Below are positions 25,340-31,639 of a stretch of DNA of 31,639 bases, in pieces. Position 1 is the stretch's first letter. Every line of letters begins with the position of its first letter. Position numbers and translations under genes: made by a program. The notes under the pieces were generated by a model, which was not told the DNA's origin, ran no database searches, and saw only the letters and a program-made list of their open reading frames with translations. This DNA is from a virus: the IMG/VR virus record IMGVR_UViG_3300009176_000922, positions 1 to 31,639 of that record. One strand, 5' to 3'.

Positions 25340-25651
25340 ATGTCTCTCGAACCGATTCGCGCCGGTGGGCTGGGCTGGTACGTGGAGCAGATTTCCCGGA
25401 CCGAGTCCCGCGGTTTGTTCAATGTCAGCGGTCTCCGCGCCTCGATTGTCTCGATGAGCGTCGAGGTGGTGTTCCGCTCAAACGATAACCGCAACATCGA
25501 GGTCAGCTTTTCGAAGGGTGGTTGGACCCCCGGATCCGAGTTCCCAGCCGCCATGTGGCTCTCCGCTCTCGAAGTGGCCCACGAACTCATTGAACGGATC
25601 GCACCCATGCGGGGAGTCGCCGCGCCAACCTCACAACCGAAATCCCAATGA
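25340..25651 (+). CDS. Early protein of unknown function (103 aa)
   Basis: This 103-residue protein has strands (GLGWYVEQIS; SIVSMSVEVVFRSN; NIEVSFSKGG) followed by a helix (AMWLSALEVAHELIERIAP). Its order beta-beta-beta-alpha is compact but not one I can name. It lies immediately upstream of bet and overlaps it by ATGA (25648-25651), so it is made together with the recombinase and may assist it. Confidence 0.55.
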   Translation: MSLEPIRAGGLGWYVEQISRTESRGLFNVSGLRASIVSMSVEVVFRSNDNRNIEVSFSKGGWTPGSEFPAAMWLSALEVAHELIERIAPMRGVAAPTSQPKSQ

Positions 25652-26490
25652 CCTCCATCGAACCTCCCAAGCGAACCACTGCGGTCACTCCACCCAAGGC
25701 CAAGCCATCGGTCCTCGACCTCATGGCCTCCCAGTACAACGTCGACCGCGCCAAGCTCCTCGAGACGCTCAAGGAGACGGCCTTCAAGGGTGCAACTGAG
25801 CCGCAGCTCATTGCCCTCTGCGTCGTCGCGGGCCAGTACAACCTCAACCCATTCCTCAAGGAGATCTACGCTTTCCCCGCGAAGGGTGGCGGCATCGTGC
25901 CCGTCGTCGGCGTGGACGGCTGGATAAAGATGACGAATGCCGCGCCGGGGTTCGACGGCATCACCTTCGCGTTCGCCGGCGAGGGTGACGACCTCGAGTG
26001 CACTGCAACAATCCACATAAAGGGCCGGAGTCACCCGGTACAGGTGACCGAGTACCTTTCCGAGTGCCACCGCAACACCGACCCGTGGAACACCTGCCCG
26101 AGGCGGATGCTCAGGCACAAGGCGCTCATCCAATGTGCCCGTGTCGCCTTCGGCTTCTCCGGAATCCACGACCCCGATGAAGCGGGAGAGATTGTCGACA
26201 TCCAGGCCGAAGTGACGCCCGTGCCTGAGAAGAGGCCGGCTGCCTTGCCCGCGAAAGTGGATCCTGACATCGAGCCAGCGACTCCCCAGCAGGCCCTGGC
26301 CGGACTCATCCTTAGCAACGGCTTCGATTTCGAAACGTTCCGCGAGTGGGGTCGGCAGAGTGGGAACCTCAAGGACGCGGACTCCCTGGGTTCCTTTGAC
26401 GACCTGTCCCCCGACGATGCCAAGCGGTGGCAGATCGCAGGCAAAGGGTTGCTCCTCCAACTCAAGAACATCACCGCCGCACGCGCATGA
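25648..26490 (+). CDS. bet: Phage recombination protein Bet (RecT/Red-beta type single-strand annealing protein)
   Basis: The 280-residue protein anneals complementary single strands during phage recombination and replication. After a Lys/Pro-rich start, ATEPQLIALCVVAGQYNLNP (residues 49-68), FLKEIYAFPAKGGGIVPVVG and VDGWIKM (to 95) are the hallmark stretch of the Bet/RecT family. A further family-like part, TDPWNTCPRRMLRHKALIQC (about 147-166) and the following ARVAFGF, completes the core, and the C-terminal 80 residues are a variable, Ala/Pro-rich tail with a helical end that may bind partners. Start set by ATGA; the stop overlaps the next gene by ATGA. No recognisable exonuclease partner lies nearby. 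Confidence 0.92.
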   Translation: MTSIEPPKRTTAVTPPKAKPSVLDLMASQYNVDRAKLLETLKETAFKGATEPQLIALCVVAGQYNLNPFLKEIYAFPAKGGGIVPVVGVDGWIKMTNAAPGFDGITFAFAGEGDDLECTATIHIKGRSHPVQVTEYLSECHRNTDPWNTCPRRMLRHKALIQCARVAFGFSGIHDPDEAGEIVDIQAEVTPVPEKRPAALPAKVDPDIEPATPQQALAGLILSNGFDFETFREWGRQSGNLKDADSLGSFDDLSPDDAKRWQIAGKGLLLQLKNITAARA

Positions 26491-27353
26491 ACACCGACAT
26501 TGTTCCATTCCGGGTCGCCGGGGAAATGGTCGAGATCCACCCGGACGCAGAGGCACTTCGCGACTGGGCGCTTACCGTTGGCGCCCTCATCGGGAGGGTC
26601 AGCGACGAGGCCTCCAATGCCGAGGCGACTGAAGCCATGCGCGGCATCAAGGAGGTCCTGAATTCCGCCGAGGCGGCTCGCAAAAAGATCAAGGAGCCCA
26701 TCCTTGACCTCGGGCGAAGGGTCGATGCGGCCGCGAAGAAGTTCAGCGAACCTCTGGATGCCGAATTCAAGCGCCTCCAGCGCATCACCGCGGACTATCA
26801 GACGGAGCAGATCGCGAGGATGCGGGAGATCGAGGACGCCCGGCGCCGCGAGGCCGAGCGCCTCGAACGCGAACGCCAGGAAGCCGAGCGCAAACTGCGC
26901 GAGGAGGAGGAACGCAAGCTCGCCGAGGCCCGCAGGAAGGCCGAGGAGGAGATGCGGGCTGCCAGGACGGAGGCCGCACGCAAGGCTGCCGAGGAACGTG
27001 CCAGGGCAGAGAAGGAACGCATCGAGCGCGAGGCTGCGGAGCGGTTGAAGGTCGAGGCCGAGCGTGCCGAGCAGGCGCAGCAGATGCTCCCTCCGCCGGC
27101 GGCGCCGGTGCGAGCCGAAGGGCAGACCGCGAAGGCTGTCTGGAAGTTCGAGGTCGTTAACCCGTTCGACCTGGTCCGCGTGAATCCAGGATTCGTCGAG
27201 ATCACTCCGCGCAGGGACGAGATCAACCGCGCGATCGCGGCCATCGTCGCCACCGGCGCCGAACCGAAGATTCCGGGATTGCGGATCTGGGAAGAGGTCG
27301 CCGTCAGCGTGCGCGCCGGCCGCATCGGCAGTGGGAAACTGATCGAAGTCTAA
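26487..27353 (+). CDS. Coiled-coil protein coupled to Bet (288 aa)
   Basis: Three parts: residues 1-105, a helical domain (SAEAARKKIKEPILDLGRRV and the following DAAAKKF is typical of a group of phage proteins next to recombinases); about 110-205, an unbroken Glu/Arg/Ala coiled coil with heptad-like repeats; about 215-288, a compact C-terminal domain (VWKFEVVNPFDLVR, then PGFVEI and IPGLRIWEEVAV). The same C-terminal signature, around K-I-P-G-(L/V)-R-I, recurs in phage proteins beside ssDNA-annealing recombinases. Role unknown; it probably scaffolds or protects DNA ends together with Bet. The length and strong coiled coil make it a dimer. ATGA overlap with bet. Confidence 0.7.
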   Translation: MNTDIVPFRVAGEMVEIHPDAEALRDWALTVGALIGRVSDEASNAEATEAMRGIKEVLNSAEAARKKIKEPILDLGRRVDAAAKKFSEPLDAEFKRLQRITADYQTEQIARMREIEDARRREAERLERERQEAERKLREEEERKLAEARRKAEEEMRAARTEAARKAAEERARAEKERIEREAAERLKVEAERAEQAQQMLPPPAAPVRAEGQTAKAVWKFEVVNPFDLVRVNPGFVEITPRRDEINRAIAAIVATGAEPKIPGLRIWEEVAVSVRAGRIGSGKLIEV

Positions 27354-30084: not shown

Positions 30085-30594
30085 ATGCCCGAGCCGGTCG
30101 TCAGCTTCTGGGTTCCGGGGCGCGCGAAAACACAGGGGAGCAAGACAGCAGGGCTGGTGCGCACACGCGATGGCAGGGTCATACCCACCATGCGCGAAAG
30201 CGGCGGCGCCGAATGGCGTGCTTGGCGATCGCAGGTTCGCGACGCTGCGATCGCCGCCTTCGGTGATTTCCGCGCCCCGCTCGACGGGCCGATCTCGATT
30301 GCCCTGACCTTTTTCTTCGTTCGGCCGAAGGGGCACTTCGGCACGGGCTGCAATTCCGAACGACTGAAGGCCGACGCCCCCACCCATCCCTGGGGTTGCC
30401 GGGACGACATCGACAAGCTCGCCCGCGCAGTCAACGACAGCCTGGCAACGGTCGTCTTTGGCGACGACGGGCAGATCGTGAGCGCCTACCTGGCGAAGCG
30501 GTTCGGCCCGACCTACGGCCTCCAGATCCAGGTCTTCGCCGAACCGGAGGCCGTGCTTGCGCTGCCAGATGCCAAACAGCTCGCCTTGCTGTGA
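30085..30594 (+). CDS. rusA: RusA-family Holliday junction resolvase (169 aa)
   Basis: RusA enzymes resolve four-way junctions formed during phage recombination. The family pattern is clear: FWVPGRAKTQGSK at the N-terminus (residues 8-20), the acidic metal-binding core RDDIDKLARAVNDSL (106-120, with Asp107/108/110), and VVFGDDGQIV (123-132, Asp127/128). Length (169) is slightly above E. coli RusA owing to a short insert around residues 83-100. Placement with Bet and an O-like initiator fits a recombination-dependent replication module. The stop overlaps the next gene's GTG. Confidence 0.88.
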   Translation: MPEPVVSFWVPGRAKTQGSKTAGLVRTRDGRVIPTMRESGGAEWRAWRSQVRDAAIAAFGDFRAPLDGPISIALTFFFVRPKGHFGTGCNSERLKADAPTHPWGCRDDIDKLARAVNDSLATVVFGDDGQIVSAYLAKRFGPTYGLQIQVFAEPEAVLALPDAKQLALL

Positions 30595-31349
30595 GCCAGC
30601 CTCTCACTGGAATCGTCCGACGACGCTGGTCCGATCTTCCTAGGACCGAGTACGCGCTCATCCTATCCCTGGCGGACATGGTCGATTCGAGCACGCGGCA
30701 ATGGCGCACGACGTGGGAGGATTTATCCCGGCGATCCCGATGGCCACTGCGTACAGTAACTCACGCAGGGTACCGACTCAGAGATGCTCGCTGGATCCAA
30801 ATCCAGTCTACAGGCAGAGGAATCGTCATAACGCTTACCCCCGAATCAGGGGTTTCCATTAAGCAGTCTGGTCGGCAACCCATTGCCGATCAGAAAGGCA
30901 ACCCATTGCCGACCAGATCGGCAACCCGCGGCCTACCAGATCGGCAACCCACTGCCGATATTGACAGCCCCCCTCATACTCCCCCTCGGGCGAACGCCCC
31001 TTCACGCCCTTTCTCCGGTAACGCGAAGGGTAAAATGTGTGTGAGCACACCTAACCTGGGCAATGGGCCGGGCACACACACACCGGCCGTGCCGGAGGGG
31101 AAAAAGCGAATACCCGCCGTTCTCGAAGTCCCGACCTTTGAACCGCTCGACACCCGCATGGCTCCCAGGCTCCGACGGCGTTATGCCGACCAGGTCGAGG
31201 CCATCCTCAAATCCAAGCTCGTCGCCATCGATAACCACGTTCTTCGCAATGGCGGGGACAGCGCCTTGTCAGAAGCCGCCTCGACAGCCATTCGGGAGCA
31301 CCTCGCAGCCGTGAAGGCCTGGGCCGTTGGCATCCGACCCAAGGCGTGA
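30591..31349 (+). CDS. O-like replication initiator carrying the origin iterons (252 aa)
   Basis: GTG 30591 overlaps the rusA stop (GTGA); the longer upstream opening is a shadow of rusA. Residues 1-85 are a winged helix-turn-helix (RTEYALILSLADMVDSSTRQ, then TWEDLSRRSRWPLRTVTHAG and the wing RLRDARWIQIQSTGRGIVIT). Residues 94-123 are encoded by four tandem DNA repeats. A low-complexity linker follows, and then a helical C-terminal domain (RMAPRLRRRYADQVEAILKS onwards, about 185-250). This plan, DNA-binding N-domain, iterons inside the gene, C-domain for helicase loading, is that of lambda O. The protein is not recognisably similar to O in sequence, so the function is inferred. Confidence 0.65.
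   Translation: MSQPLTGIVRRRWSDLPRTEYALILSLADMVDSSTRQWRTTWEDLSRRSRWPLRTVTHAGYRLRDARWIQIQSTGRGIVITLTPESGVSIKQSGRQPIADQKGNPLPTRSATRGLPDRQPTADIDSPPHTPPRANAPSRPFSGNAKGKMCVSTPNLGNGPGTHTPAVPEGKKRIPAVLEVPTFEPLDTRMAPRLRRRYADQVEAILKSKLVAIDNHVLRNGGDSALSEAASTAIREHLAAVKAWAVGIRPKA
30870..30959. repeat. Four tandem palindromic iterons, probable replication origin
   Basis: Units at 30870-30893, 30894-30916, 30917-30939 and 30940-30959 (the last lacks its tail). The consensus is close to TCGGCAACCCATTGCCGA followed by (T/C)CAG; the core is a palindrome (TCGGCAA, 4-base spacer, TTGCCGA), perfect in unit 1. Unit 3 is the most diverged. The period of 23 bases is not a multiple of three, so the encoded peptide does not repeat: the DNA, not the protein, is conserved. 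Confidence 0.8.
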
Positions 31350-31381
31350 CGTTATCCCGGCCTGCCCCAATACAATCACCC

Positions 31382-31588
31382 ATGCCTAAAGCACCCAAAG
31401 AATACCTTGGCGACAGCGTCTACGTCTCGTTCGACGGGATGGTGTACACGCTCACCACCGACGACGGTCTCGGCCCCACGAACACGATTCATCTCGAGCC
31501 GGCGATCGTGAACGCCTTCCTCGATTTCAAGCAGCGCATGGAGGCGCAGCAAGGCGAAGCCCCGAATGAACCGCCGGATCCGTCATGA
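31382..31588 (+). CDS. Small protein of unknown function (68 aa)
   Basis: ATG 31382 (MPKAPKEYLGDSVYVSFDGM) gives 68 residues; an upstream in-frame start at 31346 overlapping the previous stop is less likely. The sequence YLGDSVYVSFDGMVYTLTTD followed by IHLEPAIVNAFLDF is the pattern of small phage proteins that often lie before genes of the type at 31585, with an acidic beta part and a short helix. Function unknown. The stop overlaps the next ATG (ATGA). Confidence 0.65.
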   Translation: MPKAPKEYLGDSVYVSFDGMVYTLTTDDGLGPTNTIHLEPAIVNAFLDFKQRMEAQQGEAPNEPPDPS

Positions 31589-31639
31589 ACGCGCGGTATA
31601 TCCTGAATGCGGACGGCAAACCCGTCTCCGAGCCTGACC
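31585..31639 (+). CDS. N-terminal part of the small phage protein whose C-terminus is at 1-155
   Basis: ATG 31585 overlaps the preceding stop and is open to the window's end, giving 18 residues: MNARYILNADGKPVSEPD. This opening is typical, from memory, of a phage protein family whose C-terminus contains LWETMVFGG, the sequence found in the first 155 bases here. The two pieces are therefore probably one gene broken by the arbitrary ends of a circular sequence. Confidence 0.65.
   Translation, partial: MNARYILNADGKPVSEPD

Follow-up and report, generated by a model that had tools for sequence, protein, structure and literature searches.

Replication origins inside initiator genes

Phage lambda has its replication origin midway along gene O; its iterons are imperfect inverted repeats, each bound by the O protein, and an AT-rich tract is required for unwinding (PMC7466680). 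A second case is SPP1, where gp38 binds to oriL inside gene 38 (PMC6316719), and the authors of work on the staphylococcal phage 80alpha remarked that ORF20 may carry an origin in its own gene, as its homologue in SPP1 does and as does lambda O, to which it is unrelated (PMC5499656). SPP1 oriL/G38P and 80alpha ORF20 thus represent a direct-repeat origin inside the gene of an initiator that is unrelated to lambda O (PMC6316719, PMC5499656). With intragenic origins published in initiators as different as lambda O and SPP1 G38P (PMC5499656, PMC6316719), the design is already established. An earlier note on the DNA described here had proposed an independent version of the same design, which is the right idea but, given lambda O and SPP1 G38P, not a new one.

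A palindromic array in an early phage gene

The window, by which we mean the whole stretch of 31,639 nucleotides analysed (positions 1 to 31,639 of IMG/VR virus record IMGVR_UViG_3300009176_000922), is a temperate phage, with genes for a terminase, portal, head protease, minus-strand integrase, excisionase-like product, RecT/Bet, a coiled-coil protein, RusA and the repeat-bearing protein. Its last ORF (MNARYILNADGKPVSEPD, 31584-31639) and its first ORF (PGGPVLWETMVFGG..., GGPVLWETMVFGG..., 1-155) are two ends of one gene, which is intact in ten viral contigs where ~40 residues separate the two parts; the record, filed as linear, would therefore be a circle or a circular permutation that lacks ~0.12 kb. 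Among the 40 window proteins neither Pfam nor PHROGs recognised a helicase, a helicase loader (P or DnaC type) or a primase, and no other replication genes were recognised among the 40 proteins of this nearly complete circle, which leaves the repeat-bearing gene as the sole visible initiator candidate. The window may hold a short or unfamiliar helicase loader; judging from the missing matches, the initiator presumably relies on the host helicase. The genes that matter here are as follows.

25648..26490, + strand: RecT/Bet-type single-strand annealing protein, in the same early block (PF03837, E 5e-24; phrog_252, E 1e-65)
30085..30594, + strand: RusA-like resolvase (PF05866, E 3e-10; phrog_140, E 6e-17)
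30591..31349, + strand: putative O-like replication initiator, 252 aa, GTG start (from ORF and position; no family match)
31346..31588, + strand: 80-aa gene directly 3′ of the initiator gene (phrog_11545, E 0.001)

The initiator gene and the RusA gene share 4 bp, at the start of the former and the stop codon of the latter. Beside RecT, the coiled-coil protein (26427-27350) shows a part-length likeness to phrog_10477 (named exonuclease), and relatives of it are present in the RecT contigs L005, L006 and L007.

Direct-repeat and tandem-repeat searches both found four 23-bp direct repeats spanning 30872-30958, which cover codons ~94-123 of the 252-aa gene; the tandem-repeat score of this array is 118, and that of every other array in the window is at most 39. 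The placement of the repeats inside a long early gene was as first described; that gene lies downstream of RecT and RusA. The array and its 5′ flank are made up as follows.

30770..30870, no strand: candidate unwinding stretch 5′ of the array (nearest-neighbour stability; least stable part of the gene)
30872..30894, + strand: iteron 1, perfect 18-bp palindrome TCGGCAACCCATTGCCGA, then TCAGA
30895..30917, + strand: iteron 2, palindrome with 2 mismatches, AAGGCAACCCATTGCCGA
30918..30940, + strand: iteron 3, degenerate right arm, 3 mismatches, TCGGCAACCCGCGGCCTA
30941..30958, + strand: iteron 4, palindrome with 1 mismatch, TCGGCAACCCACTGCCGA

The earlier note had listed four tandem palindromic repeats of 23-24 bp at 30870-30959. 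Copy number and palindromic core stand; the period, however, is exactly 23 bp, and the 18-bp palindrome TCGGCAA-N4-TTGCCGA (0, 2, 3 and 1 mismatches in copies 1-4) is perfect only in copy 1, where the arms extend to 12 bp with one mismatch (TCTGGTCGGCAA-CCCA-TTGCCGATCAGA). In the consensus, the arms are paired at 7/7 positions (p = 0.004). Elsewhere in the window the palindrome occurs at four places, each with 3 mismatches, which look like background; a count of eight matches was reached in none of 100 shuffles. Just 5′ of the array, inside the weak stretch, lies a small inverted repeat (ACCCCCGAATCAGGGGTT, 30837-30855), a possible extra element.

Because the gene has to encode its protein, the null model chosen was synonymous-codon randomisation of the same protein. 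The tandem z of the array was 9.8 against a null maximum of 6.7 (300 synonymous-codon randomisations), and its variable-spacing score was 13 against a maximum of 7 (200 codon-preserving randomisations); the corresponding variable-spacing values for lambda gene O were 11 and 5. The features that define the class are at least three similar tandem sites in an initiator gene, here a putative one, in excess of codon constraint, and sites that are palindromes or imperfect inverted repeats; both were found.

As the period of 23 is not a multiple of 3, each copy shifts the reading frame, and the peptide encoded by the array is indeed non-periodic. The frame shift by itself does not justify the further claim that selection must act on DNA, since three added units amount to 69 bp and stay in frame, so that slippage duplication could equally build such an array. 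Conservation of the arms among the copies is also unsupported, because inter-copy differences hit the palindrome arms as often as other positions. The case for the array is carried by the palindrome and by comparative evidence, not by the frame-shift argument.

The single-sequence AlphaFold2 model of the 252-aa protein has a mean pLDDT of 57.7, a low confidence at which it is informative on the order of helices and strands only. It shows helix and strand elements at aa 18-84, disorder at aa 93-175 and a two-helix hairpin at aa 192-245. On this low-confidence model the array falls within a predicted disordered linker, between a putative N-terminal winged helix (about aa 14-84) and a putative C-terminal helical hairpin. 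The domain arrangement proposed before, with the repeats between a winged helix and a C-terminal domain, is suggested by the ordered parts that the model shows around the linker; the winged helix itself, likely from its helix and strand pattern, has no fold match, Foldseek with two models (whole protein; N-terminus alone) having returned no significant match. Pfam gave no match for the whole protein at E 1 or for the N-terminus at E 10, and hence neither PF04492 nor DUF1376 (PF07120), and PHROGs gave no family match.

No homologue of the protein was found in the collections searched, namely viral contigs, genome contigs, phages, plasmids and a sample of 229 whole genomes. Matches in the whole genomes (E 0.002-0.009, 27-35% identity) look like chance, and a candidate in L004 was a chance 8-residue match within a phage structural gene. 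The iteron DNA pattern was absent from the viral contigs searched, and a pattern scan with RusA and the 97-aa neighbour as anchors gave no relatives.

Comparison with lambda and other intragenic arrays

Lambda, like the Stx phages 933W and P27 (PF04492), has four 18-bp palindromic iterons ~20-24 bp apart in its initiator gene, which bears out the parallel with gene O drawn in the earlier note. The unit is 18 bp in both lambda and the window, and the spacing is 20, 24, 23 in lambda and 23, 23, 23 in the window. In lambda, codon 116, where iteron 1 starts, directly follows the Pfam domain, whose last residue is aa 115; in the window the array starts at codon 94, ~10 residues past the last strand of the putative domain. 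In both genes the iterons are out of codon register. The window differs from lambda in that its repeat sequence is unrelated, its protein has no PF04492 match and no P-like loader was recognised; moreover, lambda has its AT-rich stretch after the last iteron, whereas the weak stretch of the window comes before the first. An hhalign profile alignment to 13 Phage_rep_O members maps aa 14-78 to the DNA-binding domain of lambda type in a plausible register, but it is not better than shuffled sequence (79 of 100 shuffles reached the score). At sequence level protein and iterons are unlike those of lambda, as had been stated; a distant homology of the protein to lambda O may still exist.

The lambda layout recurs within its own family. 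Our survey of Phage_rep_O took 18 matches, 14 of them above the family cut-off, and applied the variable-spacing array score. Significant in-gene arrays, scoring above every randomisation, were found in 8 of the 14 genes, 2-29 aa past the domain, mostly with 19-24-bp spacing and with differing palindromic units (e.g. TTACCCGAATCAGGTAA, TTACCGGAAACGGTAA, TCCCCGAAATCAGGGA). Two of the 14, L064 and L065, carry identical arrays, and L058 has irregular spacing. Palindromic arrays also lie in the Phage_rep_O genes of L020 and L021, viral contigs that share RecT. The PF04492 gene of L062 has a sub-threshold array with exactly the spacing of lambda (20, 24, 23); here the score probably missed lambda-type iterons that have diverged.

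Among DUF1376 (PF07120) genes, 5 of 35 exceeded their own codon null, strongly (z >5) in L081 and L098; there was no detectable array in the other 30, nor in any of 6 phages fetched separately. Members such as L081 and L098 have palindromic linker arrays with a period of 22 or 23, like the window, and differ from it in N-terminal family. In several phages the DUF1376 gene precedes a helicase or helicase loader, and the arrays in L081 and L098 suggest that the family includes origin-binding initiators. Two candidates were rejected: the array in L007, a further DUF1376 example, is not above its own codon null, and the repeat in L013, which encodes an in-frame peptide repeat, was not taken as support.

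The array score also singled out an orphan gene (2-937) in L106 (IMGVR_UViG_3300005334_000138), which carries five near-perfect palindromes GTTCCCGATTTGGGAAC in an array at 401-507 and about two further copies downstream. Spaced 19-24 bp apart, these palindromes follow a helix-turn-helix-like stretch in an initiator-like gene, as in the window, and the L106 phage has the split neighbouring gene of the window together with a GpA-like terminase. The repeat differs, however, there is no detectable protein similarity, and the L106 peptide is partly repetitive; the orphan protein had no match in Pfam or phage records. SPP1 G38P is likened to the window protein by layout, not by sequence, and SPP1 differs from the window in having a second origin (oriR), a loader and a helicase of its own and an AT-rich unwinding element (PMC6316719).

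The array as a candidate origin

The array is best read as an intragenic iteron origin, since its layout, position and statistics closely resemble those of lambda gene O and since unrelated initiator genes show the same layout. We infer binding and origin activity from this likeness, and consider it probable that the array is a phage replication origin inside its own initiator gene. The N-terminal domain of the initiator would bind the 18-bp palindromes one by one, probably as dimers in which each subunit contacts one 7-bp arm. With all four sites occupied, ~2.2 helical turns apart, the resulting nucleoprotein complex would put strain on the DNA, and a weak stretch close by, probably the one 5′ of the array, would open. 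The C-terminal helical domain would recruit the host helicase, either by itself or by way of a partner that was not recognised. Lambda-like working of this kind is suggested by layout and comparison.

The flanks of the array bear on where melting would occur. The stretch 30770-30870 is among roughly the weakest 1% of the window, a rank that is not significant alone. Within the gene, the 60 bp 5′ of the array have a stability rank of 0.05, and the 60 bp 3′ of it, which are GC-rich, are not a weak stretch (rank 0.66). For 9 of the 12 genes compared, gene O of lambda among them, the 60 bp that follow the array belong to the least stable 5% of the gene. With no weak 3′ flank, either melting takes place on the other side, or the element lies elsewhere, or the array is no origin. 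That the protein founds a new initiator family, which came independently to the lambda layout, without a recognisable phage loader and with melting on the side of the array opposite to that in lambda, is a tentative proposal that we find somewhat doubtful. A GC-skew switch, suggested before as a check, turned out uninformative: the raw cumulative skew has its minimum at the window end, near the gene, but the detrended minimum lies away from it, at 15.8 kb.

Tandem palindromes to which winged-helix proteins bind are also typical of operators, and the better Foldseek neighbours of the single-sequence model include transcription factors (AphA-like, PadR), none of them significant. The palindromes might accordingly be sites at which the protein or another phage regulator represses or times transcription through the gene, with no role as an origin. 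Operators usually sit at a promoter, however, not 280 bp into a gene, no promoter-like site was found in 30400-31639 (sigma-70 consensus only), and the position and spacing of the array fit initiator genes, so that we regard operator function as unlikely. We consider very unlikely a functionless array in which slippage copied a 23-bp segment three times (69 bp, in frame) within a tolerant linker: the predicted disorder of the linker and the divergence of the copies, arms included, would suit such an origin by duplication, but the palindromic nature of the 18-bp unit (p 0.004) speaks against it, and slippage alone would not be expected to put like arrays in the same place in initiator genes that are unrelated. 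A role as RNA, with hairpins of the early transcript controlling translation, stability or antitermination, is highly improbable, since DNA palindromes automatically give the strong folding seen in the predicted array transcript (z -6.7 against shuffles), the predicted fold gives copy 3 no separate hairpin, no Rfam family matches the array, and lambda iterons are inverted repeats too, yet protein-bound as DNA (PMC7466680).

Read as an intragenic origin, the array belongs to a layout that is itself well known, and the window is a clean further example of it rather than a surprise; its novelty lies in a protein for which no relative was found, in the repeat that the gene carries and in the lack of an AT-rich stretch on the 3′ side. 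Scoring arrays against synonymous-codon randomisation, which brought out the L106 orphan gene, offers a simple finder of origins and initiators where replication proteins have no recognisable relatives. If the reading is true, one gene of 0.76 kb would be a complete initiator-plus-origin module that is movable as a unit, and the set of phages whose origin is concealed in the initiator gene would gain one with an unrelated protein. If the protein also proved to be a new initiator family, it would show, alongside PF04492, some DUF1376 members and the L106 orphan, that the palindromic origin in the initiator linker is a repeated evolutionary solution, by which initiator and origin would be co-inherited as one exchangeable module.
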